Source: an uncultured Elusimicrobia bacterium
Lineage (GTDB): Bacteria > Elusimicrobiota > Elusimicrobia > Elusimicrobiales > UBA9959
Direction: 5' to 3'
Length of the DNA: 64,000 bases
NCBI GenBank assembly: GCA_903917735.1
Contig: CAIXBR010000092.1
Coordinates: 1 to 64,000, forward strand
Shown: positions 21,635 to 40,373 of the stretch, in pieces
Numbering within the stretch: the stretch's first letter is position 1
How the letters are laid out: the number at the start of each line of letters is the position of its first letter
Position numbers and translations under genes: made by a program
Notes under the pieces: generated by a model
Told to the model about the DNA's origin: nothing
What the model saw: only the letters and a program-made list of their open reading frames with translations
The model's database searches: none

Positions 21635-21713
21635 TCTCATTTTGAGATCGTATTCTTCCCATTCATCCCATTGTATAATTCTCAAAAAGACAACTAACCA
21701 TCTCAAAATGAGA
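21635..21713 (+). promoter_or_regulatory. Upstream activator sites: three TCTCA-type inverted repeats
   Basis: Perfect inverted repeats TCTCATTTTGAGA (21635-21647) and TCTCAAAATGAGA (21701-21713) flank a half-conserved site TCTCAAAAAGA (21680-21690). The last two are spaced 21 bp, two helical turns, exactly as at 31101/31122. The proximal site ends about 90 bp before the sigma-54 promoter, the right range for an enhancer-binding protein. Confidence 0.82.
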
Positions 21714-21803
21714 GGCATTTTCTTTGTTTATACATCACACAAAGATTTAAAATTTATAAATCTCCCAATGAAAAAGGCCCAAAATCATGTATTTAACCCC
21801 TTT

Positions 21804-21819
21804 TGGCATAAAAATTGCT
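21804..21819 (+). promoter_or_regulatory. Sigma-54 (-24/-12) promoter of the peptide cluster
   Basis: TGGCATAAAAATTGCT has GG at 21805-21806 and GC at 21817-21818 with exactly 10 bases between, as sigma-54 requires. Transcription would start near 21830, 38 bp before the peptide ATG. Confidence 0.88.
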
Positions 21820-21867
21820 ATGTAGCGGGCACAAGCTGGGAAAGTAAAACTCTTGGAGGAAAATAGC

Positions 21868-22062
21868 ATGAACGCGACACATATAATCAAATCACTTAAT
21901 ATGACCTGTGGAGAAACTCTGACCCTGGAAAAAGCCAAAGACCGTATGGAGTTTGAAGCGCTGCCTATCCTGGATACAAATAAAGGCATCTGTAGCACCG
22001 TGAATTTCTGTTACTGCCCATCAGAATGTGAGGGGTACTTCAATTGCCGGCCATTTAAGTGA
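21868..22062 (+). CDS. Small Cys-rich peptide, candidate RiPP precursor
   Basis: ATG 21868 follows GGAGGA at seven bases, a strong site. The 64-residue product has a charged, helix-prone first part (MNATHIIKSL ... LTLEKAKDRMEFEALP) and a short Cys/aromatic tail, from Cys42 to the end: CSTVNFCYCPSECEGYFNCR. One further Cys is at 14. This leader/core layout, the strongest promoter in the region and the radical SAM maturase two genes downstream make it the best precursor candidate. There is no signal peptide or double-Gly. A 203-bp gap follows, containing a CTGACATTT inverted repeat (22110-22155), which could lower downstream expression. It could instead be a small metal-binding protein. Confidence 0.7.
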   Translation: MNATHIIKSLNMTCGETLTLEKAKDRMEFEALPILDTNKGICSTVNFCYCPSECEGYFNCRPFK

Positions 22063-22265
22063 TTGGTGCCTGAAATTTCCAGTTGAGGGGGGGATCTGTC
22101 CTATAGAGACTGACATTTCGGGTCTAATTAAAAAGTGAGTTCGGTTAAATGTCAGCCTTATAAGCAGATTTCCCTTCCAACTCGGGAATCAGGGCTAAGT
22201 TCAGGCAGTGGCTGTGAATATAATTGGATTAGTAATATCCTGAAAACGGTGGTGGAGGGTAATAT

Positions 22266-22994
22266 ATGAAACAACTCCTTATTATGATGTTCTTTGTTGT
22301 GCCATTATCTGCTAATGATGCGAATCCTGTTCCGGCTGTCCCCGGTTTGGATATCTCCGTAAATGTGGGGGGATTTGAGGATGATATTGCCAGCGTGTCT
22401 GCAAAATTGAGAGATGAAATAAAGAAAAACCGCATAAAAAGTGTGGCGGCTAAAGTTAGCGAGGCGATAAATAAACATGACCCGGACTCAGCTCAAAAGG
22501 CGCTGGACCAGATACTTAATGAGCTCCCTGAGCTGGTCAGCAGAGAAAGTGCGGGTGTCTGGCGTTACCAAGGCTTGATCCATCTTTGGAAAAACAATTT
22601 TGACGAAGCCTACGGCGATTTTGACCGCATTGTTAAACTTATTGAGAAGGTTTACCCCGGTGGAATACAGACCAGCAGTGATAATTTTTCCGAAGTCGTT
22701 TTTATATCAAATGCGTACTTCAACCGTGGCTCAACGGCGCTTCAAAAAAATCTTTACGCGGCGGCCGTGAAGGATATCGACATCGCAATAAGCCTCCGTC
22801 CCGCCTTTTTCATGTATCACGAGAAAACCCAGGCGCTTATAGGCCTGAAGAAATATAAGGAAGCTGCGGAAGCATATGATCTGGCGTACAAAATGAATAA
22901 TCAAGTTGTTGAAAGCCCGGATAGTACGTACATTTGCGGAGAACTGGCCAAGAATGGGATTTCCTCCAAAGCTTGTTCAGTTAAAAAACTGTAA
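22266..22994 (+). CDS. Exported protein with tetratricopeptide repeats
   Basis: GGAGGG precedes the ATG. A short signal peptide (MKQLLIMMFFVVPLSAN) leads to a helical 242-residue protein. TPR-like units are visible at WRYQGLIHLWKNNFDEAYGDFDRIV (about residues 98-122) and in the following NAYFNRGSTALQKNLYAAAVKDIDIA and ALIGLKKYKEAAEAYDLAYKMN blocks. TPRs bind peptides or proteins, so a role in holding or guiding the product outside the inner membrane is possible. It ends 12 bp before the maturase gene. Confidence 0.72.
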   Translation: MKQLLIMMFFVVPLSANDANPVPAVPGLDISVNVGGFEDDIASVSAKLRDEIKKNRIKSVAAKVSEAINKHDPDSAQKALDQILNELPELVSRESAGVWRYQGLIHLWKNNFDEAYGDFDRIVKLIEKVYPGGIQTSSDNFSEVVFISNAYFNRGSTALQKNLYAAAVKDIDIAISLRPAFFMYHEKTQALIGLKKYKEAAEAYDLAYKMNNQVVESPDSTYICGELAKNGISSKACSVKKL

Positions 22995-23006
22995 GGAGGC
23001 CTCCCT

Positions 23007-24386
23007 ATGAATGAATATTTTACAAGTCAATATCTGAACGTTATCGATCTTGGAGAAACATCCCTGCTGTTTAACGGCACCAATGGCTGCCTTGATGAGG
23101 TGTCGAAAGAGCTTGGGGGGCGGCTGTCGGATAAAAAAAGTATTAAGGATTTTTCTTTCCTTGGAAAAGACGATATCTCTTTTTTGGCGAAGCGCGGGCA
23201 TATAACCCACCTGGCGCCCGAGGTGGAGTGGAAACGTTTCCGCGATTTGGCCGCCGCCATCCACAATAAAAAGGCAGCAGGGCGGTCTTACGCGATGATA
23301 AAGTTGTTGATGAGCTACAACTGCAACCTGGACTGCAAATACTGCTATCAGCGCATGCACCGCCCGGGCAAGTCACATGCAGTAATGAGCGAAGCTCTTT
23401 TGGACAGTCTTTTCGAAAATCACCTTCCATCCCTTTTTCCGGGAGTGGATATCAAGAACACCAAAATATCTTTTTATGGCGGCGAGCCTTTTCTGTCATC
23501 AAACGAGAAAATAGTACGCAAAGCACTTTTTCACGCCAAGAAGCACGGGATGCAGTCTGGCGCCATAACTAACGCTACAATGGTAGACAGTATGCCGGAT
23601 ATTTTCGGGACCGAACCCGGAACAGTTAGTATGGTCCAGGTGTCGCTGGACGGCAACCGCGAGGAACATGACAATTCACGGGTCCCTATTTCAGGCGGAA
23701 AAACCTTCGACCGGATAATTGAAAACATAAAAATGCTTCTTGAGCGTGGAACCAAGGTGAATGTCCGGTTGAACCTTGATAAACGCACAATTGAGTCCAT
23801 TCCTCCCTTGCTTGAAGAGCTTAAAAGCAGGAAAGTGATCGGGCAGCCCAACTGCCTTATATATGCCAGCCCGCTTCAGAATAACATGGGAAGCGTAGAT
23901 GATGCCAACTTTATGGATGTTTACTCCCTTTCCACCCGCATGGCTAAGCTGGGTGTGGATATGGAACATCCCGTAAGTCTGCGGGCTAACGAGATGAGTC
24001 ATCTGTTCGGGATGGAAAAAGGCCTGGGCCTAAACAGGACTGCGTATTGTATGCAGAGCACCCAGAGCGCGATAATAGTGGACCCTTTCGGTGACCTTTA
24101 CTCTTGTTTCGAAGAGGCTGGTCACCCGGAGTACAGGATAGGCAGTATCTCCGCAGGGAAGGTTAAGTTCTATCCGCTATTGGAAAAGTACCGGACCCGC
24201 CATATAGCCAACATGGAAGAGTGTGTTAAATGTTCGGTCGCGTTGGCTTGCGGGGGCCAATGCGGCGCCAAGGGCCGGACTGAGACAGGGGATTTATTGC
24301 GGCCTTATTGCCCTGACTTTAAGGCTACAATACTTGAGTCTGTGAAGTGCGCCTACATGAAAAACAAGAAAGAGTCAAAAGATTGA
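23007..24386 (+). CDS. Radical SAM/SPASM peptide maturase
   Basis: AAGGAGG precedes the ATG. The 459-residue enzyme has an N-terminal region of about 95 residues (SLLFNGTNGCLDEVSKEL) resembling peptide-recognition winged helices of RiPP maturases. The radical SAM core carries CX3CX2C at Cys106/110/113 (YNCNLDCKYCYQ), the SAM-binding FYGGEP and QVSLDGN. The SPASM domain near the C-terminus holds Cys406, 409, 415, 419 and 435 (ECVKCSVALACGGQCG ... YCPDF) for extra 4Fe-4S clusters. Such enzymes install thioether or C-C crosslinks, or epimerise residues, in precursor peptides. Anaerobic sulfatase activators share the fold, but no sulfatase is present. The likely substrate is the peptide at 21868. 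Confidence 0.9.
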   Translation: MNEYFTSQYLNVIDLGETSLLFNGTNGCLDEVSKELGGRLSDKKSIKDFSFLGKDDISFLAKRGHITHLAPEVEWKRFRDLAAAIHNKKAAGRSYAMIKLLMSYNCNLDCKYCYQRMHRPGKSHAVMSEALLDSLFENHLPSLFPGVDIKNTKISFYGGEPFLSSNEKIVRKALFHAKKHGMQSGAITNATMVDSMPDIFGTEPGTVSMVQVSLDGNREEHDNSRVPISGGKTFDRIIENIKMLLERGTKVNVRLNLDKRTIESIPPLLEELKSRKVIGQPNCLIYASPLQNNMGSVDDANFMDVYSLSTRMAKLGVDMEHPVSLRANEMSHLFGMEKGLGLNRTAYCMQSTQSAIIVDPFGDLYSCFEEAGHPEYRIGSISAGKVKFYPLLEKYRTRHIANMEECVKCSVALACGGQCGAKGRTETGDLLRPYCPDFKATILESVKCAYMKNKKESKD

Positions 24387-24413
24387 GAACTCTCGATTGC
24401 CTTCCTGGGATCT

Positions 24414-25538
24414 ATGGCCGCCACTGACACCATATACCAAAACCATCTGAAAAATGGATATCCCGTTCAAAGGGATGCAGGGGCGCTTATAATTACCGAT
24501 ACTTCCTGCTATCAGTTGAGTGAAGAGACCACTTGGTTGATAGCGGGTTTGCCGGACAACGGCGGGAAGGAATTGTATTTTAATGCTCTGTCCGGCCTTG
24601 GTCTCAATGAGCCTCAAAAAATATTTGACAAGCTTGTTGCGCTGGGGGCGTTGCGTGAAAAAGAGAAACGTTCCTGGAAAGATATATTAGGAATGATCCT
24701 GACGCCAAAGATAAAGCTGTTTTCTGCGCAGTTTCAGGAAAAGTTTTTCCAGTTTTTCGAAGTCCGCGCCGTAGAAATTAATAAAGTTGTGCAAATTCTC
24801 GCTGTTATTTCAGTTCTTGGGCTGTCATGGGGGGCGGCGCTATTGATCGCCGGGCCTAAAAATGTGCTCCCGATTTCTTTGACCGGAGAAGCGAATGGTT
24901 TTGTAGTGTTCCTTCTGGTAATGGCTGGCAGTCTGATACATGAATTGGGGCATTCATTCGCCGCTATGGTGTCAGGTATCGGGCTAAGGCCAATAGGTTT
25001 TTCGGTTTATCTTATCTACCCTGTCTTTTATACCAATGTTTCAGGCATTGAAAAAGTCAGTCTTTGGAAAAAAGTGCTTATCGACTGTGGAGGATTCGTT
25101 TTTCAGGGAGTGTTTTTGTTCATGCTTTTGCTGTTGTGTACCTTTACCGGGAGCTCTACCGTTGCAGAGTCTGCGCGCTGGATAGTTGTTATAGTTCTAT
25201 TCAACCTTAATCCGTTTTTTCGGACTGATGGATACTGGCTTTATAAAGACGTATACTCTGAATTTAATACACGGCAATGGGCGCGTACCACGCATTACCT
25301 TTATTTGGCGGCATTTGCCGCATTCTCAGGTTATTTCCTATGGCGGATCTGCGGTAGGGTTGGATATATCTGGCACGGCCTGAACATGTTAATGCATTCG
25401 CCACGGTATTTCTTTTCCGGGGGTTACCGTATAGTTTTATGCGCCTATTTTATTCTTGTTGGGTTTGCCGGCGGCTTGGGGCGTTTTAAAGAAGGTCATC
25501 AGGAGTGGAAAGACCTTACAAATAGTCAGGGTGAATAA
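24414..25538 (+). CDS. PqqD-like domain fused to M50 intramembrane metalloprotease
   Basis: Residues 1-90 form a PqqD-like unit (YPVQRDAGALIITDTSCYQL ... DKLVALGAL), the fold that RiPP enzymes use to bind leader peptides. Residues 120-365 are a multi-helix M50 protease with the zinc motif HELGH at 176-180 and the second conserved block NPFFRTDGYW near 265-275. M50 proteases of this kind process modified peptides: YydH of the Bacillus yyd epipeptide locus follows a radical SAM enzyme in the same way. The start at 24414 has only a weak GGGAT site, and the gene lies 27 bp after the maturase. A leader-removal role is inferred. Confidence 0.87.
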   Translation: MAATDTIYQNHLKNGYPVQRDAGALIITDTSCYQLSEETTWLIAGLPDNGGKELYFNALSGLGLNEPQKIFDKLVALGALREKEKRSWKDILGMILTPKIKLFSAQFQEKFFQFFEVRAVEINKVVQILAVISVLGLSWGAALLIAGPKNVLPISLTGEANGFVVFLLVMAGSLIHELGHSFAAMVSGIGLRPIGFSVYLIYPVFYTNVSGIEKVSLWKKVLIDCGGFVFQGVFLFMLLLLCTFTGSSTVAESARWIVVIVLFNLNPFFRTDGYWLYKDVYSEFNTRQWARTTHYLYLAAFAAFSGYFLWRICGRVGYIWHGLNMLMHSPRYFFSGGYRIVLCAYFILVGFAGGLGRFKEGHQEWKDLTNSQGE

Positions 25539-25594
25539 AAATTTTGCGCAGGATATTTGTTCTGCTTAAATAGCAAGAGTGATACGGAGGAAAA

Positions 25595-26434
25595 ATGAGG
25601 ATATGTTTAGGTTTGGTTGTTTTGTTCTCTCTCTCGTCGGTTTCGGGGTATTGCGCTGAAAAAGAACAAAAAACTTTTTCCTCCGCTGGTTTGAACCGGC
25701 TTTATGTGACGACTGAAACCGGGGCGATAACCGTGGACGGGACCTCCCGAAATACCGTACTGGTAGAGATCTCCGGTAATGAACAGGATAAATGCATTCT
25801 GACTATGAATGTTGCGGCCGGCCGTCTTGTTCTAACTGCGGAGGGCCGCTCTTATACGCCCCCAAAGGGCTGGAAAAATATCTTTGGTCTCTTCAGGGGA
25901 GGAGAACGGCGTGTGGATTGCCCCGCAAGCTTCAATGTCTCTGCGCCTTCTTTTCTTGAACTTGAGGCGAAGGCTGGGACTGGTGATGTAAATGTGGCGG
26001 CAATGAGCGCCCATTCGTCTATCGAGGCCGGTACCGGCGATATTCTGCTCCGGGGGATTTCCGGCAGCCTTGCTGTGCAAAATGGGACAGGCGCTCTGAC
26101 AGGATCGGCCTGTCCAAAGAATATGGTCATTAAAGGCGGCACCGGTAAAATACAAATTACAGGGCTTTGCGGTCCGGCTATTGTGCAGTCAGGGGGCGGC
26201 GGCGTAAATTTGGAATGGGATAGGGTTCCCAGTGAAGGCGATGTGCGTATTCAGACAGGTACTGGTTCGGTTCGCCTTGTTTTCCCTGATGCTGCGAAAC
26301 TTAGCACGTCTTTATCAAGCGGTTTGGGGAGGATAACCAACGAGTTCGAAAACAGTAACGGTTTCCCGGTCTCCGTACAATCCGGTACAGGAAGCGTTTC
26401 AGTAATAAAATCCAAGGGGAATAAGACTTTATAA
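25595..26434 (+). CDS. Exported DUF4097-type beta-helix-like protein
   Basis: CGGAGGAAAA precedes the ATG. A signal peptide (residues 1-20, ending SGYCAE) precedes about 250 residues of short Gly/Thr-rich strands: ETGAITVDGTS, KAGTGDVNVAAMS, EAGTGDILLRGIS, QNGTGALTG, KGGTGKIQITGL, QTGTGSVRLVF and QSGTGSVSVI. The regular xGTGxhxh repeat is that of DUF4097/DUF2807 (adhesin-like) proteins, which form surface-exposed beta solenoids. It closes the peptide operon; it may bind the product or be a cell-surface sensor or immunity factor. Function is not known. Confidence 0.78.
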   Translation: MRICLGLVVLFSLSSVSGYCAEKEQKTFSSAGLNRLYVTTETGAITVDGTSRNTVLVEISGNEQDKCILTMNVAAGRLVLTAEGRSYTPPKGWKNIFGLFRGGERRVDCPASFNVSAPSFLELEAKAGTGDVNVAAMSAHSSIEAGTGDILLRGISGSLAVQNGTGALTGSACPKNMVIKGGTGKIQITGLCGPAIVQSGGGGVNLEWDRVPSEGDVRIQTGTGSVRLVFPDAAKLSTSLSSGLGRITNEFENSNGFPVSVQSGTGSVSVIKSKGNKTL

Positions 26435-26468: not shown

Positions 26469-26800
26469 ATGGAAGTTGTGGGCGACAATTGGAATGTGGT
26501 CTCTCACGATAAACCCCGCGGGATTTTAATAAAGGACGGGAGAATCATTTTCAAAGAGAGTTTAAGCATGGGCAATTCTAAATATAACAAAGGCACACAA
26601 TCGGCGGAATTGCTGGGGCAATCTTAACACTTATCTTGTTCTGGAGCAGAGGCGATGCGCCCCGCAAATTCCTGCCAATGCTGTTGCTGGTGCTTATTTG
26701 CCTCATCCCATGGACCAGCGCTTCTCTTGGTAATTATGTGTATAAGAAGTGCGTTTCAAACCCGAATGGCATAAAGGATGAGGCTAATCCCAAAAAGTAG
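26469..26800 (+). pseudogene. Frameshifted duplicate of the small two-helix membrane protein
   Basis: From ATG 26568 the DNA is close to 90 per cent identical to 32847-33080, but one base is lost near 26596 (GGCACACAATCGG against GGCGCAGCCATCGG), so the frame closes after SAELLGQS. The remaining coding sequence to TAG 26798 is otherwise intact (KFLPMLLLVLICLIPW). An in-frame extension upstream from ATG 26469 (MEVVGDNWNVVSHDKPRG) has no counterpart at the intact copy and may be an older fusion partner. Confidence 0.8.
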
Positions 26801-27176: not shown

Positions 27177-27926
27177 ATGACCGAAGCAAAAAATATTCCC
27201 CTTTCGATGCCCAATCCAGACGAAAACGGCTTATTCCGCACACTCAACAGCATGGGGACCATGACGCCCTGCCCCGACATCTTCTCCAGCGCTTTCATCG
27301 AGTTCGCACCAAACGCTCCTGGCCGCTGCCTGGATATCGGCGCCGCCTACGGCGTATCGACTATTCCTGCTCTCGCGAAAGGGGCTTATGTCGTAGCTAA
27401 CGACATAGACGAAAGGCACCTCCGGATACTTGTTTCGCGGGTCCCTGCGGAAGACCGCGCCCGCCTTGAGCTAGTGCCAGGAAACTTCCCCGATGAAATG
27501 GTTTTCCAGCCCGGCAGTTTTGGCGCGGTTCTTGTTTGCCGTGTTATGCATTTCTTTGACGGCCCACGGATAAATCGAGCTGCGGCCAAGGTTCTGGAAT
27601 GGCTGGCCCCCGGTGGTAAAGTGTTCGTAGTAGCAGAGACGCCTTTTATCGGCACAGCCCGCGCCTTCTTCCCCACCTATGAAGCCAGACTTAAGGCAGG
27701 GAATCTGTGGCCAGGCGTGGTTGAGAACGTCTCCGCTCACGACCCGAATCGCGCGGGTTCGCTCCCAAGCCTTTTTCATCTGCTTGACGACCGCGTATTA
27801 AGCCGAGTCTTCACTTCCGCCGGTTTCACCATAGAGCGCCTGACGTATTTCGCGCGTCCGGATTACCCTGCCGACATCCGCTTGGATGGAAAGGAAAGTA
27901 TCGGAATGATAGCAATAAAAAAATGA
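27177..27926 (+). CDS. Class I SAM-dependent methyltransferase
   Basis: GGAG lies eight bases before the ATG. The 249-residue protein shows motif I CLDIGAAYGVSTIPAL (about residues 50-65), an acidic motif II at VVANDIDERHL, and a post-motif region VLEWLAPGGKVFVVAETPF, the usual order for the Rossmann-fold methyltransferases. The substrate cannot be read. Its stop overlaps the start of the kinase gene (ATGA at 27923-27926), so methyltransferase and kinase are cotranscribed. A small-molecule or quinone methylase fits as well as a peptide-tailoring enzyme. Confidence 0.78.
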   Translation: MTEAKNIPLSMPNPDENGLFRTLNSMGTMTPCPDIFSSAFIEFAPNAPGRCLDIGAAYGVSTIPALAKGAYVVANDIDERHLRILVSRVPAEDRARLELVPGNFPDEMVFQPGSFGAVLVCRVMHFFDGPRINRAAAKVLEWLAPGGKVFVVAETPFIGTARAFFPTYEARLKAGNLWPGVVENVSAHDPNRAGSLPSLFHLLDDRVLSRVFTSAGFTIERLTYFARPDYPADIRLDGKESIGMIAIKK

Positions 27927-30034
27927 AGCCCTTCCGTGCAGTACGCTCACTTGGCTGGGCGCTGTTAATCTCGGTCACGACAGCAGTGTCCTTACACGCC
28001 TCGATAACACAATCCCCGTTGTTGACGCTTGAGGGCGGAAAACACGTATACACAGTGCGGAACATCCAGGTGATACTGGACCCGGCGCACTCCCTATCCA
28101 TCGAGGAGATACTCCGCCTGGAGAGCGCTGGCAAAGCCCCGTGGAACTCCGCCAATAAGCTTAATTTCGGTTATTCAAAGGCCAGGTATTGGCTAAAACT
28201 AGAGATTGAGAACAAGTCCGCCGAAGAGTACAACTGGCTGCTGGAATTCGGCTACCCGCTTATACAAGTCCTTCACGTATACCGCTATTCCGACGCTGCG
28301 AAGCCTGAATATTGGCAGACCGGCAAGCTTGCCCCATTCGACAGCCGCCCTATAGCGCACCGCAACTTCCTCTTCAATTTTACATCCCGGAAAGGTGGCC
28401 GGACCATCTTTTATTTCATGTTGGAAAGCTCCGGCACACTACTTGCGCCGATAACAGTATATTCACAAAAGGAATTCCTGGGCCATAGCGCCGGGGTAGC
28501 GGCCGGGATAGGGATATATTGCGGCGTCATCTTGGCAATGGTCTTATTCAATTTCTTCTTGCTGGTCACCACGCGCGACAGGAACTACCTCTATTATATA
28601 GGGTACGCGCTATCATTCTGCCTGCTGATGAATACACTCAATGGGATGACCTACCAGCATCTCTGGCCGGAATTACCGAAATGGAACAACATCAGCGTTC
28701 CTGTGCTGGCAGGGATTTCTTATCTATTCCTCGCGCTCTTCACTCGCTCGATACTTGACACGCGCAGATACGCCCCACGCATGAACGCCGGGCTATACGC
28801 TATAACCGCCGGAGCCGTGTTCTTGGTATTAGGGGGCATATTTCATTATGGGTTGCTGGTAAGTAAATTCACTAGCTTCTTTATTTCAGCCGCGCCGCTC
28901 ATCGTGCTCCCGATTTCACTCTGGTGCCTGCGCAAAGGCTCGCCGACCGCCGGCTACTATTCCCTCGCCTTAGGCTTCTTTCTCTTAGGGGCCGCGGTGC
29001 GCGCGGCCAGGGACTTAGCCTGGATACCGCAGAACCTGTTCGCGGACTACGGACCTTATTATGGGTCGGCAGCAGAAATGTTGCTGCTCTCTCTGGCCCT
29101 GGCCGTCCGAATCAGGCTGCTTAAGGAAGATAAACTTAAAGCTGAACTGCACACTCTTAAATCCGAACGCAGTCTGGCTGCCAGCCGGAATGAACTTGAA
29201 AGGCAAACGGCCATCGCCTCGATGGCCGCCCAGGTCGCCCATGACATCCGCTCCCCGCTCGTCGCCCTGGACGCCGCGCTCAAACACACGGAACAGTTCC
29301 CCGAGAAACAGCGGACTATTGTGCGCCACGCCGTCAACCGCATACGCGATATCGCCAACAACCTTCTTGAAAAGAACCGACAACAGTCGGGCACCGCGTC
29401 CACCACTGTAGCCGGCGAGCCCCCGGCCGTTCACCTGCTCTCAAGCCTGCTGGATCCGGTTATCACGGAGAAACGCCTTTCTTTCGAATCAAAGCCCGGG
29501 ATCAACATTGATTTTAAACTGACACAGGAATCCTACGGTCTGTTCGCCAGGCTCCAGCCGGTTGAATTCAGGCGCATGATCTCTAATCTGGTCAACAATG
29601 CTGTTGAAGTGCTGGGCGATAAGGGTGCGGTCAATGTGGGTTTAACTCATGAAAACGGAAATATCATTTTAACCGTAGCCGACAACGGCAAAGGCATCCC
29701 GCCTGAAATATTGCTCAAACTTGGTCAAAGGGGAGAAACGCACGGCAAAACTGGCGGTTCGGGGCTGGGTTTGTATCATGCCAGGACCACGGCGGAAAGC
29801 TGGGACGGAAGTCTGGTTATCACCTCGGAATTAGGCAAGGGTACTACTGTTACAATACAACTTCCCAAGGCCGAAGCCCCGACGGAATTTATGCCGTTGT
29901 TGGAACTTGCCCCCGGCAGGCCGGTTGTGGTGCCGGTCCCTGCCACCGCTACAGGTGCTCGCGCCGCCTCCGTCGCCTTCAGAAATCGCACGGGGTCGGC
30001 CACCACCTGCGCCCACACAGACCGACGCCCATAA
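27923..30034 (+). CDS. 7TMR-DISM histidine kinase, C-terminus replaced by mobile-element DNA
   Basis: Signal peptide, an extracytoplasmic 7TMR-DISMED2 domain (about residues 30-170, with YSKARYWLKLEIEN), seven membrane helices of the 7TMR-DISM type (about 185-400), a short coil, then DHp with VAHDIRSPLVALDAA (near 440), N box NLVNNAVEVL, G1 DNGKGIPPEI and G2 SGLGLYHART. The DNA from about 29220 to 29932 closely matches the kinase at 36148. After PGRPVVV the similarity ends abruptly near 29933; the last 35 residues are translated antisense to a ParB-like gene. The kinase core is intact, but the receiver domains of its paralogue are missing. It may signal by transfer to a separate regulator. 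Confidence 0.85.
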   Translation: MKPFRAVRSLGWALLISVTTAVSLHASITQSPLLTLEGGKHVYTVRNIQVILDPAHSLSIEEILRLESAGKAPWNSANKLNFGYSKARYWLKLEIENKSAEEYNWLLEFGYPLIQVLHVYRYSDAAKPEYWQTGKLAPFDSRPIAHRNFLFNFTSRKGGRTIFYFMLESSGTLLAPITVYSQKEFLGHSAGVAAGIGIYCGVILAMVLFNFFLLVTTRDRNYLYYIGYALSFCLLMNTLNGMTYQHLWPELPKWNNISVPVLAGISYLFLALFTRSILDTRRYAPRMNAGLYAITAGAVFLVLGGIFHYGLLVSKFTSFFISAAPLIVLPISLWCLRKGSPTAGYYSLALGFFLLGAAVRAARDLAWIPQNLFADYGPYYGSAAEMLLLSLALAVRIRLLKEDKLKAELHTLKSERSLAASRNELERQTAIASMAAQVAHDIRSPLVALDAALKHTEQFPEKQRTIVRHAVNRIRDIANNLLEKNRQQSGTASTTVAGEPPAVHLLSSLLDPVITEKRLSFESKPGINIDFKLTQESYGLFARLQPVEFRRMISNLVNNAVEVLGDKGAVNVGLTHENGNIILTVADNGKGIPPEILLKLGQRGETHGKTGGSGLGLYHARTTAESWDGSLVITSELGKGTTVTIQLPKAEAPTEFMPLLELAPGRPVVVPVPATATGARAASVAFRNRTGSATTCAHTDRRP

Positions 30035-31100: not shown

Positions 31101-31134
31101 TCTCAAAAAGAAAATCTAGCCTCTCGGAATGAGA
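31101..31134 (+). promoter_or_regulatory. Upstream activator sites, second sigma-54 operon
   Basis: TCTCAAAAAGA (31101-31111) and TCTCGGAATGAGA (31122-31134), 21 bp apart. The first is identical to the site at 21680-21690; the second is a near match to 21701-21713. The pair ends about 89 bp before the promoter, against 91 bp in the first operon. Confidence 0.8.
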
Positions 31135-31222: not shown

Positions 31223-31238
31223 TGGCACAAAAATTGCC
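31223..31238 (+). promoter_or_regulatory. Sigma-54 (-24/-12) promoter of the second operon
   Basis: TGGCACAAAAATTGCC fits the sigma-54 consensus fully: GG at 31224-31225, ten bases, GC at 31236-31237. The start would be near 31249, about 60 bp before the ATG at 31308. Confidence 0.92.
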
Positions 31239-31307
31239 CTGTGGTGGGTGTAGGCAAAACCGGCGGGGGAAAGTTCTACCGGTGATTTTAAAAGAACGGA
31301 GAAATAA

Positions 31308-31994
31308 ATGAAAAGATTAATGATAGTGGTGGCGGCGGTAGTAGGACTGGGTATTAGTTTTGCCCATGCCGGGGAAATGAAAATAGACTTCGACGGTAAA
31401 CGTGTTGATTCAAGAAGTTTTATGGAGGCAATTAAGAGTGTTGCTTCCTACCAAAATGATAGTATAGGCAATGTAGAACCAGTCCAAGTGGGGATTGCGA
31501 GACCGGTTCCTTTGCTAACTCTGACTTCAGCGGGGAAAAAACCAAAAAGCAAACAGCAATTGATAAAAAGCATTTTGCACGATTATAATACTCAGATATT
31601 ACATAACGAAGGGGTTGAAAGAAGTTTACAAGACGACGGAGTCATTGTCGCTTTTAAATTGCCCGGCGACATGTTAATCACAAAAAATGGTGAGACCTTA
31701 TCCACTATTAGCGATCCGGCTCTGCAAGAAACGATACGCCTTGCCCTTTTGGAAAATGACAACATTATTATAGCTCCAGTGCGTGGGAGTTGTACTGAAT
31801 GGGTTGCCCAGCAGGTCTGGCAGTATGTTTTAGGAAAGCTCGTCGAGAAAACAGTACAGGTTTGCGCTCACTATGCGGAAGAGGCTATAAACAATCATCC
31901 ACCTGTTGTGCCGGAAAATCACCCATATCCGCAGGCTTCCGGTTATTCCCCGGGGTGCTACACCCATCCCAATGGCCAAGTTGTTTGTGAGTGA
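31308..31994 (+). CDS. Exported protein with DFDG motif, sigma-54 controlled
   Basis: A clear signal peptide (MKRLMIVVAAVVGLGISFAH, cleaved near AHAGE) is followed by MKIDFDGKRVDSRSFMEAIK, the same DFDG opening as two other exported proteins in the window. The 228-residue protein has four Cys late in the chain (CTEW, VCAHY, GCYTH and the terminal VVCE), suggesting disulfides, and a Pro/His-rich tail (NNHPPVVPENHPYPQ). No family recognised. It is the first gene behind a perfect sigma-54 promoter with the operators of the peptide cluster, so it is probably made together with that cluster. AACGGAG precedes the ATG. Confidence 0.72.
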   Translation: MKRLMIVVAAVVGLGISFAHAGEMKIDFDGKRVDSRSFMEAIKSVASYQNDSIGNVEPVQVGIARPVPLLTLTSAGKKPKSKQQLIKSILHDYNTQILHNEGVERSLQDDGVIVAFKLPGDMLITKNGETLSTISDPALQETIRLALLENDNIIIAPVRGSCTEWVAQQVWQYVLGKLVEKTVQVCAHYAEEAINNHPPVVPENHPYPQASGYSPGCYTHPNGQVVCE

Positions 31995-32012
31995 TTATAA
32001 TAATTAGGATGG

Positions 32013-32040
32013 GATACGGCAGGGTTTTCCCTGCCGTATC
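32013..32040 (+). other. Perfect intercistronic stem-loop without T run
   Basis: GATACGGCAGGG pairs with CCCTGCCGTATC around TTTT, a 12-bp perfect stem. GTAAAAAC follows, not a T run, so on this strand it is more likely an mRNA stabiliser or partial attenuator than a terminator. It ends eight bases before the CPBP protease ATG. Confidence 0.7.
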
Positions 32041-32048
32041 GTAAAAAC

Positions 32049-32768
32049 ATGATTGCAGAAAAGAAAACATTAAGCCAGTCAGATTTCGGACAAATTATTT
32101 GGGGGGTAATTGGTGTCTATTTGGCGGCAGTTATCCTGTTTCATTCAGCTCCGCCAGAGATCCTTGAGTTTGTGTATCATGTCGGAGTTTTATTAATACT
32201 GGCGTTTTTTTTAAGAAAACTTGGGATTAAGCGAATTGATTTAGAAAAATACACTTTAATCAATCTCAAGATAGATTTTATTAATGCGGTAAAATATTTT
32301 GCTCTTATAGCTTTAGGCATCGTTGCATTGCTTTCAGTTGCCGCTGGTTTCCTTTTGCTTGCTTCCAATTTAAACCCAGTAGTTGCGAATTTTTATAAGG
32401 GCGTCACAAATACTGCGAGTATTATGTCTCCGACGCAAATATTTCCACAAGCATTCAGTTCTCCTACAAGAACTTTTTTTTATCTGACCACTGTTTGTGC
32501 TATTGCCCCAATTGCGGAAGAGATATTTTATCGAAGATTTTTATTTGTTTTCTTGCGTAAGAAATATTGCAAGGTTACTGCAATAGTTGTTTCCGGCATA
32601 ATTTTCGGGATTGGACATTTTGAGGGGTTTATTGTGGCAACATTAATGGGGATTATTCTTGCATATGTTTACGAAAAGGAAGATAAGTTGACAATCCCTG
32701 TGTTGATCCATATATTCAAAAATGTAACCGCCGTTCTGGCCGGCCTACTGTATGCTTATGTCGCGTAG
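32049..32768 (+). CDS. CPBP family intramembrane glutamic protease
   Basis: The 239-residue protein has about seven membrane helices and the three CPBP (CAAX protease/bacteriocin-processing) motifs: EEIFYRRFLF with the Glu pair near residue 158, FGIGH (FxxxH) near 185 and IHIFKN (HxxxN) near 220. Prokaryotic members often sit in bacteriocin operons for processing or immunity. Here it follows a sigma-54-driven exported protein and precedes a small two-helix membrane protein. No strong ribosome-binding site is visible; a perfect stem-loop lies directly upstream. A processing or self-protection role is inferred. Confidence 0.85.
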   Translation: MIAEKKTLSQSDFGQIIWGVIGVYLAAVILFHSAPPEILEFVYHVGVLLILAFFLRKLGIKRIDLEKYTLINLKIDFINAVKYFALIALGIVALLSVAAGFLLLASNLNPVVANFYKGVTNTASIMSPTQIFPQAFSSPTRTFFYLTTVCAIAPIAEEIFYRRFLFVFLRKKYCKVTAIVVSGIIFGIGHFEGFIVATLMGIILAYVYEKEDKLTIPVLIHIFKNVTAVLAGLLYAYVA

Positions 32769-32846
32769 CATTGTGTAATTAGCAGTCGCCTAAAAGCTTG
32801 GGGAGATTAAACTTTTTAAGTCACTTTGAGGGGAGCTATGTTGAGT

Positions 32847-33948: not shown

Positions 33949-34040
33949 TTTATAATTAGGGGTTGGAGACGATTCCGGGATAAGAGCCGCAGCTTTTCGT
34001 ATACAATTATTTAATTATATATAATACTTTGATTTCGAAA

Positions 34041-35219: not shown

Positions 35220-35221
35220 TA

Positions 35222-36151
35222 ATGAAATTCTACTGGATAGATGCTCTTAATGAATACGAAAATACGATAACAAACGGCGTCCTGAGGGTTTTTGAAACAA
35301 TCTATAAGCCGTATGCCAGAGAAAATGGTTTTGAGTTCGAATATATTGATGCGGCCGGCATCGTACCGGCCTCCTCCGGTAAAAACATGATCTTGTATGA
35401 GGGGAAGGATATCCTGCAAAACCAAGCCTCCGTGTTTATTTCTTATGCCAATGCGCAGCCTCAACTGGAAAAAATCCTGGAATCTGTCACGCGCATTGCG
35501 TATCAGAGCAACACTTGGACCATAGCGAACCGTACAGGGAAGGGGATATTCCTGGACAAGGACAAATTCGCCGGGATTTCAATGGCAAGAGAACTGGGGG
35601 TGCCGGTGCTTCCTACGGTCATTATTCCATCCAATAAAAAAAGCCGCACTTTAATAAAAGATATAGAAGCTGTTTTGGGGGCCTATCCATATATCGTAAA
35701 GCCTAAAGAGATGCTGGCGGGGATAGGCATTATTAAAATTGACAGTGCTGAATCGTTTAAATCAATTCTTGATATCGTGGGGCAATCCGCCAAAGATTAT
35801 ATCGCCCAGCCATTTATTGGGGATGCGCGGGATTACCGGGTGTATACGGACTGCGGCAAGGTCATCGCCTGCCTGCAGCGGCAGCCCGCAGATGGGGAGT
35901 ATCTTGCCAGCATTTCTCGCTCCGGGAAAGGGGCGGGAGTCACGGCCCCCGAAAACATCGCGGCTTTAACGGAGACAATAGCGGGGGCTTTCGGCGGCGA
36001 TTATTTATGCGTTGACTGGCTGGCGGCCGGAGATAAATTCTGGTTTTCAGAAATTGAGAGCGGTGGTGGTTTCTCGGCCTTACCGGAGCCCGAAAGGGGA
36101 CGGGTGGCTAAGGCTTTTTTCAACTCGAATAGGAAAGGAAGCGTTAAGTGA
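35222..36151 (+). CDS. ATP-grasp ligase (RimK-like)
   Basis: The 309-residue protein has the ATP-grasp order: N-terminal Rossmann-like part, FLDKDKFAGISMARELGVPV (about 112-131), the ATP-binding strand and loop YIVKPKEMLAGIGIIKID (about 158-175), YIAQPFIGDARDYRVYTDCG (about 195-214) with the RxY/DxR pattern, and the metal-binding end VDWLAAG ... WFSEIESGGGF where Glu and Ser replace the usual EVN. These enzymes join a carboxylate to an amine through acyl phosphate. Candidates are dipeptide, peptide-tail or graspetide-type ligation. It overlaps the kinase start (GTGA). Confidence 0.82.
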   Translation: MKFYWIDALNEYENTITNGVLRVFETIYKPYARENGFEFEYIDAAGIVPASSGKNMILYEGKDILQNQASVFISYANAQPQLEKILESVTRIAYQSNTWTIANRTGKGIFLDKDKFAGISMARELGVPVLPTVIIPSNKKSRTLIKDIEAVLGAYPYIVKPKEMLAGIGIIKIDSAESFKSILDIVGQSAKDYIAQPFIGDARDYRVYTDCGKVIACLQRQPADGEYLASISRSGKGAGVTAPENIAALTETIAGAFGGDYLCVDWLAAGDKFWFSEIESGGGFSALPEPERGRVAKAFFNSNRKGSVK

Positions 36152-38838
36152 TCTCCAATGATATTGTGGAGGCAAGGGAATTAACCAACAATCTTGCGGT
36201 ATCCTTCCTGATAATCGGCATATCTGTTTTTGTCTTGCTGGTGTATGCGTCATACAATCCCAAATTCGACACTACGTTGGAGGATAATATTTCCAAAGTC
36301 ACTATCATTGGGGATAATGACAGGGTAATAAAACAAGGCGGGCTGGAAATACTCTCAAATATCCCGCCAAACGGAAAAATACTTTCTTTTGTCGTCAATA
36401 ATCCAGCCAATACCGGAGAATTAGGTTCCTCACAGGCTTTATACCTCACCCCGATGCAAAGCCCCTTCCGGATAAAAAGCAAAAATTCCGTATTGCTGAG
36501 CGACGGTGATTTCGACAATAATATCCCGCCAAAAGCCCTTGATATACTTTATTCTTTAGCTCCTTTGGAGACAAATCCTTCGATGATAGTGGAAACCAGG
36601 CTTTCCTCGTTGAGCGGAAGTCATTTGGTATTTATGAAGCGGTCGGGTTTTGGCAGATATGAGCGCTTGGCGATAACTAGGTTCGCCAAAACTTTCCTTA
36701 CCAATACAGGGAATTTAACATTGGCAGCGGCTTTCCTGGCCTTTGCCGCGATTTTGTTTTTGTCCTGGCTCAATATGGGAAAAAGCAAAAAGTTGTTTTT
36801 TCTGATGACGGCAACTGTTTTTCAGTCCTGGATAGCGATGTGGTTTAGTCGCGAGATCTATAGTATCCTTACTGATGCCAACTACATACATAAGATAAGC
36901 TTTGTGGTATATTTTTTGTTCTTTTCCGCTTATGGCTTTTTCCTTAGGGAATCAGCCACGGGGAAAATATTGAACAGAGTATATTTGGTTTTTTCCACCG
37001 CTGGCATTCTCGCCGCAGTCATCCTGGTTGGTTCGGGTTTGTTCTGCCCCCTGGCCACAGGATTTCAGATTTATAAATACTTCCTGTGCCTTGCGCTCCT
37101 GGGTTATTTTGCGTTTGCGATTATGGGGACGTTGTCAGCCTGGAGAGAGAAGACAAAATCGTCTACTTTTTATGTTTTGCTGCCAACCGCCGCCTGGATT
37201 ATCGCAATTGGACATGGAAATGATATTTTAAGGGTTTATTCTTTGGCTTTGTCTCCATACAATCTCGGGCCATACTCGTTTTTTCTCGCGCTTAATCTTT
37301 ACATGACAAACATGGCATATTACATCTACATGCATCATCAGCAGACATTAATAAGGGAGCGGGACAACTCCCGGCTTGTCGCGATAGGCGAACTCTCCGC
37401 GCAGGTGGTTCATGATATCCGCTCGCCGCTGGCCGCGCTGGACGCGGCGTTGAGGAACACAACCCAACTACCGGAAAAGCAGCGTGTTATCGTACGGCAT
37501 GCGGTCAACCGCATACGTGATATCGCCAATAACCTTCTCGAAAAGAACCGGCAGCAAACGCGGGGCGCGAGCGCCGCAGATTTCGCTACCGGCGGTCATG
37601 TCGCCGGAGAGTCTCGAGATGTGTACCTGCTTTCAAGCCTGATGGATCCGGTTATCACAGAAAAACGCCTCTCATTCGAATCAAAGCCCGGGATCAATAT
37701 CGATTTTAAACTGACACCGGAATCCTACGGTCTATTCGCCAGGATCCAGCCGGTTGAATTCAGGCGCATGATCTCTAATCTGGTCAATAATGCCGTTGAA
37801 GTGTTGGGCGATAAGGGTGCGGTTAATGTGGGCTTAACTCATGAAAACGGAAATATCATTTTGACCGTAGCCGACAACGGCAAAGGAATACCGCCTGAAA
37901 TCCTGGCAAAGCTCGGGCAAAAAGGTGAGACCCATGGTAAAGCCGGCGGCTCCGGGCTGGGTTTATTCCATGCCAGAACCACTGCGGAAAGTTGGGGCGG
38001 CAGCCTGGTAATTACTTCGGAACTGGGCAAAGGGACCACTGTTGCAATAGAACTGCCCAAAGCCGAAGCTCCGGCAGAATTCGTACCGTTATTGGAGCTT
38101 GCCCCAGGCAGACCGGTTGTAGTGCTGGACGATGACGCGAGCATTCATCAGGTTTGGCAGGGCCGGTTTGAATCGGCGAGGGTTAAGGAACATGATATTG
38201 AAGTAATCAATTTCAGCGATCCGGATAAACTGCGCGAATGGGTAAGACGCAACACGGCAAAGGCTGAACATGCGGTTTATCTGTTTGATTATGAACTTGT
38301 GGGGTGTAAAGAAACCGGGTTAGGCCTGGCTGAAGAACTGGGATTATGCCGCAGAACGATATTAGTGACCAGCCGCTGTGAAGAAGATCGGATAATTAAG
38401 GAGTCCAAGCGGCTTAAAATGCGGATGATCCCCAAAGGACTGGCAAGTCTGGTGCCGATAACAATTCAGGAATCCACAGAAGAAGTGAAAATAATCACTT
38501 CTGCCGGTCCTGTGGACGCGGTTTTGGTAGATGACGATGTTCTGGTCCGTATGAATTGGGAAGCGTCAGCGGAATTGAAAGGCATAAAACTTAAAATATT
38601 CAAGGATCCCGCTGAATTTGTGGCACAGGCCGGGCAATTCCCGAAAGAGACGGCCATTTATCTGGATTCGGAACTGGGTGAAGACAGTGAAGGCGGCGAG
38701 ATCAAAGGCGAAGATATCGCCCAAGATCTTCATGCTAAAGGGTTCACCAATATAACTCTTGAAACAGGGCGCCTGCCGGAAAAATTCGCGCATTTGCCCT
38801 GGCTTAAAGTAACGGACAAAGATTCGCCCTGGAGCTGA
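36148..38838 (+). CDS. Hybrid histidine kinase with membrane sensor and two receiver-like domains
   Basis: A GTG start overlaps the ATP-grasp stop. An N-terminal helix, a periplasmic domain (about residues 35-185) and seven or so helices (190-400) form the sensor. The DHp box VVHDIRSPLAALDAAL lies near 420, N box NLVNNAVEVL, G1 DNGKGIPPEI and G2 SGLGLFHART follow. Two receiver-like domains end the protein: about 655-775 (VVVLDDDASIH ... VYLFDYELVG) and about 788-896 (AVLVDDDVLVRMNWE ... IYLDSELGED ... LPWLKVTDK). Both keep an acidic pocket and a central Asp. The adjacent convergent sigma-54 regulator is the likely partner. This is the complete paralogue of the kinases at 7156 and 27923. Confidence 0.87.
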   Translation: MISNDIVEARELTNNLAVSFLIIGISVFVLLVYASYNPKFDTTLEDNISKVTIIGDNDRVIKQGGLEILSNIPPNGKILSFVVNNPANTGELGSSQALYLTPMQSPFRIKSKNSVLLSDGDFDNNIPPKALDILYSLAPLETNPSMIVETRLSSLSGSHLVFMKRSGFGRYERLAITRFAKTFLTNTGNLTLAAAFLAFAAILFLSWLNMGKSKKLFFLMTATVFQSWIAMWFSREIYSILTDANYIHKISFVVYFLFFSAYGFFLRESATGKILNRVYLVFSTAGILAAVILVGSGLFCPLATGFQIYKYFLCLALLGYFAFAIMGTLSAWREKTKSSTFYVLLPTAAWIIAIGHGNDILRVYSLALSPYNLGPYSFFLALNLYMTNMAYYIYMHHQQTLIRERDNSRLVAIGELSAQVVHDIRSPLAALDAALRNTTQLPEKQRVIVRHAVNRIRDIANNLLEKNRQQTRGASAADFATGGHVAGESRDVYLLSSLMDPVITEKRLSFESKPGINIDFKLTPESYGLFARIQPVEFRRMISNLVNNAVEVLGDKGAVNVGLTHENGNIILTVADNGKGIPPEILAKLGQKGETHGKAGGSGLGLFHARTTAESWGGSLVITSELGKGTTVAIELPKAEAPAEFVPLLELAPGRPVVVLDDDASIHQVWQGRFESARVKEHDIEVINFSDPDKLREWVRRNTAKAEHAVYLFDYELVGCKETGLGLAEELGLCRRTILVTSRCEEDRIIKESKRLKMRMIPKGLASLVPITIQESTEEVKIITSAGPVDAVLVDDDVLVRMNWEASAELKGIKLKIFKDPAEFVAQAGQFPKETAIYLDSELGEDSEGGEIKGEDIAQDLHAKGFTNITLETGRLPEKFAHLPWLKVTDKDSPWS

Positions 38839-38839
38839 G

Positions 38840-39034
38840 CTATTTCTCTTCTAACTCGGACAGGCAGTTTAAAATGTCCTGCGCGGCTTCTTTCATAAAA
38901 ACGAGCATTTCCTTTCGTTTTTGTGGGGTGTATCCCTGAAAGAGTTCCGCCGCGCCTTTCAGGCTTCCGCATCTTGAACGGATCTTGTGAAGCGGCTTTT
39001 CCAGTTTATTGTTTGGTTCCATCCGGATCGCCAT
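38840..39034 (-). CDS. Short helical protein overlapping the regulator gene
   Basis: The ATG lies inside the 3' end of the response-regulator gene (29-base overlap), so it is cotranscribed with it. The 64 residues end in a conserved helix-turn-helix-like pair (KGAAELFQGYTPQKRKEMLV, FMKEAAQDILNCLSEL) that recurs at 26943-27173. Conservation of the amino-acid sequence in two loci supports translation. It may be a small partner of the kinase or regulator; no family is recognised. Confidence 0.6.
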   Translation of the reverse strand: MAIRMEPNNKLEKPLHKIRSRCGSLKGAAELFQGYTPQKRKEMLVFMKEAAQDILNCLSELEEK

Positions 39035-40373
39035 CCTTGTTCATCGGCTCAAACTTCTTCAGTCTGGCATAAAGCAGATTTGTGGATATCTTAAGCCCGG
39101 CCATGGTCTTGCTTTTATTGCCGCTGTTCTCCCGTAGATTGCGCCGGATAATTTCATAACTGAAAAGTTCCGCGGCGCTATCCAGACCGTTGTCCACGGC
39201 ATAGCGGTACTGTGTATCCGTAAGGAAGCCGCCTGCGGGCAGGGCTTTGATCTCCTGATTAAGATGTTTGCGGACGGTTTCAAGCGTCACACGGGTTTCC
39301 GCGCCTGAAACAAGCAGTTCAACCAGCTTTTTTAATTCACGCGCGTTGCCCGGCCAGGCATACTTAAGCATAAAAGCTTTTGCGTCCGGCGCGAATGAAA
39401 GCTGCATTTCTCCACGCATAAAGCGCCGTATGAGCGGGAAAATATCGTTATTTCTGTCCGCCAATGGTTTTAGATTCACAGTCAAGCCGTGTATCCTCTG
39501 GAAAAAGTCCAGCCGCAGCCTGCCCTGTGTTATGAGCGTTTGAAGATCTTCCAGTGTGGCGCTTATGATGCGAAAATCCGAATGCTCGGGCTTGTCCGCG
39601 CCCAGCGGGTAAAACGAGTGTTCCTCGATGGCTTTAAGCAGCTTGGCCTGCATATTAAGGCTCATGGAGCCTATCTCATCAAGGAACAGAGTCCCGTTAT
39701 GGGCCTGTAACAGGCGGCCTTTTCTGGCTTCAGCCGCCCCGGTGAAAGCGCCTTTCTTGCAGCCAAACAACTCGGCCTCCAATAAGTCCTCGGTGTATGC
39801 CGAGCAGTTCAGGGCGACAAACTCTCCGGCGCGGCCTGAATGGTTATGTATTATTTCAGCCAGACAGGTTTTGCCTGTGCCGGTTGGACCCAAAATTAAA
39901 ATGGGAGAGCCGGAAGCCGCATATTTAAGCGCTTCAGACACATTTGCGCGCGTAGCGGGGTCTTCGGTTATAAATTCTTCGGAGAACACCTTGCCAATAT
40001 TTCCGCTTTTTCCGCGTTGTAAATATTTGGCGATAACCGCGCTGATATTGGCCTTTTCGTTGCCTTTGATATAGAAGTCATCGCACCCTAATGCGTATGC
40101 CTTATTTATTATCTCGTCGGAATCGGAACTGGTCATCACTACCGAATATAAACATTTTGCCTTGGCATCAGCGATCAATTTGAGGCCTGAATAATTGTCG
40201 TCAGAGCCCAGCATCAGGTCCAGGAAACACAGGTCGTAAGAGCCTGAGGCTAGTTTCTTCCTGGCGGTCTTTTTGTCCTTAGCGAAGTCCACGCTATGGC
40301 CGGTTAAGTGGCTAGCCATAACTTCACGCGCCAGATTTTCATCCTCAACCAAAAGGATCTTCAATTCATTCAT
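39006..40373 (-). CDS. Sigma-54-dependent response regulator (NtrC type)
   Basis: Residues 1-118 are a receiver: Asp11/Glu12, phosphoacceptor Asp52 (CFLDLMLG), Thr81 and Lys103. Residues 130-360 are an AAA+ enhancer-binding domain with Walker A GPTGTGKT (162-169), the sigma-54 contact loop GAFTGA (208-213), Walker B GTLFLDEIGS (227-236) and an Arg finger region. The C-terminus (about 400-445) is a Fis-like helix-turn-helix (SKTMAGLKISTNLLYARLKK). It is the only sigma-54 activator seen here and is next to the hybrid kinase, so it probably binds the TCTCA-N3-TGAGA sites at 21.6 and 31.1 kb. The Nif3-like gene ends 11 bp upstream. Confidence 0.93.
   Translation of the reverse strand: MNELKILLVEDENLAREVMASHLTGHSVDFAKDKKTARKKLASGSYDLCFLDLMLGSDDNYSGLKLIADAKAKCLYSVVMTSSDSDEIINKAYALGCDDFYIKGNEKANISAVIAKYLQRGKSGNIGKVFSEEFITEDPATRANVSEALKYAASGSPILILGPTGTGKTCLAEIIHNHSGRAGEFVALNCSAYTEDLLEAELFGCKKGAFTGAAEARKGRLLQAHNGTLFLDEIGSMSLNMQAKLLKAIEEHSFYPLGADKPEHSDFRIISATLEDLQTLITQGRLRLDFFQRIHGLTVNLKPLADRNNDIFPLIRRFMRGEMQLSFAPDAKAFMLKYAWPGNARELKKLVELLVSGAETRVTLETVRKHLNQEIKALPAGGFLTDTQYRYAVDNGLDSAAELFSYEIIRRNLRENSGNKSKTMAGLKISTNLLYARLKKFEPMNKDGDPDGTKQ

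Follow-up and report, generated by a model that had tools for sequence, protein, structure and literature searches.

Does a short Cys-rich peptide gene that is followed by genes for a radical S-adenosylmethionine (SAM) enzyme and a membrane protease belong to a system producing a ribosomally synthesized and post-translationally modified peptide (RiPP)? This question is raised by five open reading frames (ORFs) at positions 21868-26434, + strand, of contig CAIXBR010000092.1 (assembly GCA_903917735.1) from an uncultured, groundwater-type Elusimicrobia bacterium. The window analysed here is the stretch of 64,000 nucleotides that carries them. A preliminary description, made from the sequence alone, had proposed a RiPP system under sigma-54 control, and we recovered all its ORFs at the same positions, with the 64-residue, Cys-tailed peptide first. 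The leader/core pattern of the peptide, its adjacency to the maturase gene and the co-occurrence of the two across genomes support that proposal, and the cluster is almost certainly a RiPP cluster. The preliminary description had named three conditions under which it would fall, and none of them held.

A precursor family with a constant leader and variable cores

When 295 genomes of the phylum were searched with the window maturase, 13 proved to have close homologues, and there was one distant match. A scan of a wider genome collection added Elusimicrobia metagenome-assembled genomes (MAGs), single MAGs labelled Holophagaceae, Oligoflexia and Hydrogenedentota, whose labels may reflect binning, and UASB270. 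The 3-20 kb around each maturase homologue were then searched with a hidden Markov model (HMM) of the N-terminal 32 residues of the precursor. Nearly every locus contained precursors, one to three per locus, and the resulting family comprises 25 precursors with a common leader (consensus IIKSLNLTxGExLTLEKAxDRMEFEAL; N11, L20 and R26 invariant). The cores are hypervariable, Cys-rich and 19-76 residues long. Mean pairwise identity is 0.57 for leaders and 0.26 for cores, and Cys accounts for 149/1213 core residues (12.3%) versus 2/796 leader residues (0.25%), so that Cys richness of the tail, on whose conservation the preliminary description had staked its reading, is conserved in the family. Three core types can be distinguished, with CN repeats (L024, L025), with a CDCxGPxGYInCxPyk tail (L018, L026-L028, L030, L031, L035) and with a Pro-rich tail (L023, L033, L034, L036, L039); the window precursor ends in CEGYFNCRPFK, which is related to the second. 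As judged from the alignment, the family has a constant leader followed by a variable Cys-rich core, as RiPP precursors do. No NCBIfam or Pfam family was matched when the precursors were scanned.

Around the core Cys, Tyr at +3 (z 5.8) and Asn at +1 (z 4.8) are enriched, with z-scores that are inflated by sequence relatedness, redundancy weighting having barely lowered the number of sequences (effective n 26). This enrichment was considered as a guide to the chemistry and rejected, the signal not being clean enough.

Two observations concern precursors outside the main set. An orphan precursor in the window's genome (L151, G000:C5:45912-46007), with no maturase nearby, has a core, CTGRIPEPPPPTCV, nearly identical to the core CSGRIPEPPPPTCV of the second copy of the cluster described below, and is a possible substrate in trans. 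Divergent maturases at L037 (G267:C15) and L062 (UASB270) accompany different precursor families, three copies with the leader IIESVEFLAADDLLVAELDKRLSFTAL at L037 and a peptide with CDSD repeats at L062; the two loci share a large protein ahead of the maturase, which suggests a sister RiPP lineage.

Precursor and maturase occur together

The leader HMM recognized 14 genuine genomes among 341 of the phylum; a fifteenth match (G320) lies within a 448-aa ORF and was discarded as spurious. Among the 295 genomes tested for both genes, the leader is present in 12 of the 13 with a maturase and in 1 of the 282 others (Fisher p = 2e-19, a value that overstates independence because the genomes are related). 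In the thirteenth maturase genome (G115), where no leader was found, the maturase lies at position 7195 on a contig of 8.8 kb. In the single genome with a leader and no maturase hit (G222), a maturase match situated right behind the TPR gene ends after about residue 64. A further leader-positive genome outside the 295-genome sample (G331, locus L059) also carries a maturase. Barring the spurious G320 match, leaders in the phylum search are therefore confined to genomes with at least part of a maturase. Orphan precursors exist in G291, in G231 and on contig C5 of the window's genome, all genomes with a maturase elsewhere. In plasmid records all maturase relatives were distant, with less than 60% identity and with 28% for the top matches.

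The radical SAM/SPASM maturase

The CX3CX2C motif (Cys 106/110/113) noted in the preliminary description stands, and its count of five C-terminal Cys has to be raised to seven (348, 367, 406, 409, 415, 419 and 435), which form the canonical SPASM pattern; motif and SPASM Cys are invariant in 17 homologues. The highest-scoring HMMs are CefB (121 bits), PapB (NF047865, 119), TIGR04463 (114) and the geopeptide model (TIGR04280, 108), the last two matching all 17 maturase homologues. The enzyme scores lower with the sulfatase activator: the anaerobic sulfatase maturase model (TIGR03942) gives 86 bits, followed by SCIFF (TIGR03974) with 80, YhhB with 60, StsB with 58 and FxsB with 46. These scores lie far below the curated cut-offs (PapB 340, SCIFF 425, sulfatase maturase 349, TIGR04463/TIGR04280 400-525). 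Among solved structures CteB is closest, both in sequence (E 3e-23) and in fold (E 1e-16, near full length), EpeE being a distant fold match (E 2e-7). The structural model (predicted local distance difference test, pLDDT, 81) opens with three strands and three helices (beta3-alpha3), the arrangement of a RiPP precursor recognition element (RRE), and residues ~1-91 are predicted to be an RRE-like domain that may recognize the leader. The maturase is nearest to enzymes of the CteB/PapB/CefB type. PapB forms Cys thioethers (PMC9413430), and the window enzyme most likely cross-links Cys in the manner of ranthipeptides or sactipeptides.

The M50 protease

The protease has the HExxH and distal NPxxxxD motifs of M50 enzymes in a multi-helix membrane domain, with H176, E177, H180, N266, P267 and D272 invariant in 20 homologues. 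Its Pfam M50 score (24.8 bits) is just under the gathering score of 27.2. The daptide protease model matches 20/20 homologues and the YydH/LiaK model 19/20, both below cut-off; for the window protein the scores are 39 bits (cut-off 300; residues 73-300 on 70-303 of 379) and 37 bits (cut-off 225). A PqqD-like N-terminus had been proposed, and the structural model (pLDDT 84) indeed begins with a beta3-alpha3 unit. Its top fold match is the PbtF RRE (E 0.76, probability 0.63), a weak E-value since the RRE-like domain makes up about one fifth of the query; TigE and ThcOx structures are also listed. From this topology, and from the RiPP-enzyme structures as top sensible matches, we predict that residues ~1-80 are RRE-like. 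M50 proteases (EpeP, TglG, TmoG) process other RiPPs, and EpeP may additionally export its product (PMC10885120); by analogy, release of the peptide by the window M50 is therefore a reasonable inference.

Gene organization and distribution of the cluster

The features of the cluster and the candidate regulators are listed in Table 1. A Shine-Dalgarno-like ggagg lies immediately 5' of the peptide ATG. GC content is 44-49% across the cluster versus 55-65% in the 9 kb before it, which suggests that the cluster may have been horizontally acquired.

Table 1. Features of the cluster and candidate regulators in the window.
Feature	Position	Strand	Basis or remark
Palindrome TCTCATTTTGAGA, putative upstream activator site 1	21635..21647		Exact match to TCTCANNNTGAGA; placed like TTTTCAWWTGAAAA palindromes at homologous promoters
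Palindrome TCTCAAAATGAGA, putative upstream activator site 2	21701..21713		Exact match to TCTCANNNTGAGA
Predicted sigma-54 (-24/-12) promoter TGGCATAAAAATTGCT	21804..21819	+	64 bases before peptide start; recurs upstream of homologous precursors
RiPP precursor, 64 aa: leader 1-32 and 32-aa core with 5 Cys	21868..22062	+	Leader HMM, family alignment
Exported TPR protein (Pfam TPR_1/TPR_2), optional accessory	22266..22994	+	Invariant C-terminal Cys 224, 237
Radical SAM/SPASM maturase	23007..24386	+	RRE-like ~1-91, CX3CX2C (106/110/113), seven SPASM Cys
M50 (site-2) intramembrane metalloprotease	24414..25538	+	HELGH 176-180, NPxxRTDGY, RRE-like N-terminus ~1-80
Exported DUF4097 (toastrack; weakly LiaG-like) protein, optional accessory	25595..26434	+	Pfam/NCBIfam scans
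7TMR-DISM sensor histidine kinase, C-terminal receiver-like part lost; candidate, possibly damaged, sensor	27923..30034	+	1.5 kb downstream of cluster
Second histidine kinase, same kinase core, intact C-terminal part; candidate sensor	36148..38838	+	Convergent with response regulator
NtrC-type response regulator (receiver and sigma-54 interaction domain)	39006..40373	-	57% identical to regulator beside homologous cluster L031

The host genome (3.59-Mb assembly, 132 contigs, labelled G000) carries a second copy, peptide-TPR-rSAM-M50, on contig C104, with a maturase 51% identical to that of the window. Peptide, maturase and M50 form the common core across loci. The TPR gene, whose product has a signal-like N-terminus and two Cys invariant among homologues, is present in about half of the loci. 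DUF4097 occurs in about six, and its gene follows the M50 gene in the window, L024, L025, L060 and L063 (L063 and L038 being one contig). The pair of exported proteins added in the preliminary description is real, and both are optional accessories rather than core parts. The preliminary description also knew of no described system with this exact set. The full order peptide-TPR-rSAM-M50-DUF4097 was indeed seen only in the window among the loci compared, yet it is one combination of a modular family.

At L059 a similar-looking exported protein, not recognized by Pfam, lies between two precursors. At L027 (G231:C88) the third codon of the precursor is TAG and the TPR gene is seemingly frameshifted; this cluster is probably in decay.

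Elsewhere in the window, two copies of one small membrane-protein gene (26569-26800 and 32838-33080) each lie 3' of a sigma-54 unit, the first apparently frameshifted relative to the second, which suggests a segmental duplication. An MFS-like transporter gene and a RimK-like ATP-grasp gene (34029-36151) precede the second histidine kinase and could be a separate peptide-ligase system.

Predicted sigma-54 promoter, palindromes and regulon

The sigma-54 promoter and operators of the preliminary description were confirmed as sequence elements: TGGCATAAAAATTGCT lies before the peptide gene, and within the window only the two palindromes match TCTCANNNTGAGA exactly. If one mismatch is permitted, TCTCANNNTGAGA has 5 matches in the window versus 0.98 expected, and no shuffle reaches 5. 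Elements like TGGCATAAAAATTGCT precede 13 precursors in 12 loci by 62-96 bases (the window, L024, L025, L026, L027, L018, L030 twice, L031, L032, L035, L036 and L039), and 0.05-1.6% of random 350-base segments contain one at the same scores. Palindromes related to TTTTCAWWTGAAAA were found before several other precursors, at L018, L026, L027, L030, L032, L033 and L035. Judged by its -24/-12 element, the fixed spacing, the putative upstream activator sites and the presence of sigma-54 and an NtrC-type activator in the genome, the cluster qualifies as a predicted sigma-54 unit.

The consensus TGGCAYN4ATTGCW has 12 sites in the window's genome versus 2 for a reversed control, and all 11 perfect TTTTCAWWTGAAAA palindromes in the 3.59 Mb sit 53-105 bp upstream of such sites. 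Palindromes and promoters together define a predicted sigma-54 regulon rich in exported products, in keeping with the link between sigma-54 and control of the bacterial exterior (PMC3162934). One member begins with a compact 358-aa sigma-54 gene (L116:6836-7909; G000:C28:46835-47908), the one sigma-54 gene recognized in the assembly, followed by genes for a DUF4097 protein and a TldD/TldE pair. Others encode a TolC/HlyD/MacB exporter and two clostripain-family peptidases. A unit for a TPR protein and a TlpA/ResA-like thioredoxin has the promoter element and lacks the palindrome. We rejected the idea that the window palindromes are the same motif as TTTTCAWWTGAAAA, their arm spacing being different (13 vs 14 bases), and because the window carries the variant TCTCANNNTGAGA, the cluster belongs only probably to this regulon. 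A specific tie between the compact sigma-54 and RiPP clusters was likewise rejected. Close relatives of this sigma-54 are spread over most of the family, whether or not a genome has RiPP clusters, and frequently have a more distant paralogue beside them; relatives also lie near the RiPP clusters of L027 and L059. The regulon would therefore be a general one, of which the RiPP cluster is a sporadic member.

Other units with such promoters were noted. At L118 (G000:C30, promoter 44738-44753), under the same sigma-54 and palindrome control, a gene for a peptide with a twin-arginine translocation (Tat) signal and a Tyr-rich tail (QNGYTQYGKYADYVNDGNCK) is followed by radical SAM genes, one of them nearest to DynA/DarE-type maturases, a possible second peptide-modification system. 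Another sigma-54 site of the window, TGGCACAAAAATTGC (31223-31237), is preceded by a similar palindrome (31122-31134, one mismatch) and followed by genes for an exported protein of no known family (31308-31994) and a CPBP-like membrane protein (~32050-32767). A unit similar to window positions 31223-33080, with the same promoter type, is found on G000:C79 (L120).

Candidate two-component regulators

The preliminary description added two-component control to the sigma-54 promoter. The promoter is conserved at homologous loci, as described above, and two-component control is plausible. Kinases and NtrC-type regulators of one family adjoin the clusters L024, L025, L027, L030, L031 and L059. The response regulator of the window lies ~13 kb from the cluster, and its pairing with either histidine kinase and with the palindromes is conjectural.

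Proposed mechanism and alternatives

From these observations we infer the following course of events. A signal from the envelope would reach a histidine kinase of the seven-transmembrane type, which would activate the NtrC-type regulator bound at the upstream palindromes, and the sigma-54 promoter would open. The RRE-like N-terminus of the maturase would bind the conserved leader, and the enzyme would join core Cys to nearby residues as thioethers. The RRE-like N-terminus of the M50 protease would then hold the leader while the enzyme cuts at the membrane, near the EFEAL end of the leader, letting the core out to the exterior. The exported TPR and DUF4097 proteins may be optional envelope partners (in reception, immunity or anchoring). 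We regard a RiPP with thioether chemistry by the SPASM maturase and release by the M50 protease as probable. A broader proposal, in which the family is a separate class of Cys-rich RiPPs with one leader handed between two RRE domains (those of the SPASM maturase and the site-2 protease), inside an envelope regulon under an NtrC-type regulator and compact sigma-54 (about 358 aa) that also holds TldD/TldE, a TolC/MacB exporter and further radical SAM genes for peptide modification, is tentative and less likely than not.

Several findings weigh against thioether formation followed by M50 release under this regulon. Neither the maturase nor the protease nor the precursor scores above the cut-off of any curated family. 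A search for one acceptor residue close to the core Cys (for example a CX3D rule) brought out no single rule. The fold match of the protease N-terminus has the weak E-value given above. A dedicated peptide exporter was sought within the cluster and not found, the sole exporter candidate lying elsewhere in the sigma-54 regulon. Finally, the window palindromes have a spacing unlike that of the common TTTTCAWWTGAAAA site, which leaves it uncertain which regulator uses them.

RRE-SPASM enzymes act on Cys-rich cores in both sactipeptides and ranthipeptides, and the title of the CteB structure paper speaks of sactipeptide biosynthesis; thioethers at alpha carbons, as in the former, rather than at other carbons, as in the latter, would be a sub-case of the thioether reading. 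This sub-case seems somewhat unlikely, the best HMMs being CefB, PapB and TIGR04463, whereas the sactipeptide model StsB reaches only 58 bits. Less likely again, the maturase may act on residues other than Cys, by cyclophane formation or by Tyr or Asn chemistry, leaving the core Cys for disulfides or metal in the extracellular peptide. The Tyr and Asn enrichment near core Cys, inflated as it is, would agree with this, as would the two invariant Cys of the exported TPR partner and the thioredoxin in the sigma-54 regulon, but the cyclophane models (YhhB, FxsB) score well under those of thioether maturases.

The protease brings to mind the epipeptides, in which the maturase would epimerize (as YydG/EpeE), the M50 enzyme would free a D-amino-acid peptide and the Cys would form disulfides only. 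The M50 matches the YydH/LiaK epipeptide protease model, and the DUF4097 protein weakly matches LiaG, YydF being a trigger of the Lia response (PMC7026026). We nevertheless consider this improbable, given the full SPASM set of the maturase, its fold nearer to CteB than to EpeE and cores that are 12% Cys. That the cluster makes no RiPP at all, the maturase activating another enzyme in the manner of a sulfatase activator and the small ORF being incidental, is hardly credible. The sulfatase-maturating enzyme anSME is among the closest solved structures, yet across the phylum the peptide goes with the maturase, the precursor has evolved in a leader/core pattern, the sulfatase-maturase model falls far below its cut-off and no sulfatase was recognized among the window genes scanned. 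Thioether formation by the SPASM maturase, with M50 release, is the explanation we prefer.

Significance and relation to known systems

No earlier description of this peptide family was found in the open-access literature. The precursor family, the enzyme pair and the promoter define a RiPP lineage that occurs chiefly in the Elusimicrobiota, few members of which have been cultured. Hypervariable cores behind a constant leader amount to a naturally occurring library for a Cys cross-linking enzyme that may be permissive. If the protease does have an RRE-like domain of its own, this would bear on how membrane proteases recognize modified precursors, and the link to a sigma-54 regulon of exported products makes the role of the peptide, which may lie in envelope stress, competition or signalling, directly testable.

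The nearest relatives by HMM and structure are the ranthipeptide systems PapA/PapB and SCIFF/CteB, together with CefA/CefB, where a SPASM maturase likewise acts on a small precursor that is rich in Cys and has a conserved leader. The window system differs from them in scores far below the cut-offs, another leader, the lack of a regular Cys spacing, and the presence of an M50 protease and a sigma-54 promoter. Geopeptide and TIGR04463 enzymes, the latter named for Cys-rich targets, are also SPASM peptide maturases, but the window maturase reaches only 108-114 bits against them and precursors of its family are matched by no NCBIfam model. The daptide M50 protease is the best NCBIfam match of the window M50, and its 379-residue model may leave room for a similar N-terminal domain. 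To our knowledge, daptides are not products of SPASM maturases. The yyd/epe epipeptide locus of Bacillus subtilis, like the window, combines a radical SAM enzyme with an M50 intramembrane protease for release (PMC7026026, PMC10885120). It has an epimerase, a sigma-A promoter and the ABC transporter YydIJ (PMC7026026), whereas the window enzyme is of the SPASM type and the RRE-like N-terminus of the window M50 is not part of the segment to which the 246-residue YydH/LiaK model aligns. In pearlin systems (TglG/TmoG) a membrane M50 protease also acts on a modified precursor (PMC10885120), but single C-terminal amino acids are released there, in contrast to the 19-76 residue Cys-rich cores of the window family. 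Set beside these systems, the family is distinct and so far unnamed, found mainly in Elusimicrobiota, and takes its place within the radical SAM RiPPs rather than as a categorically new kind.

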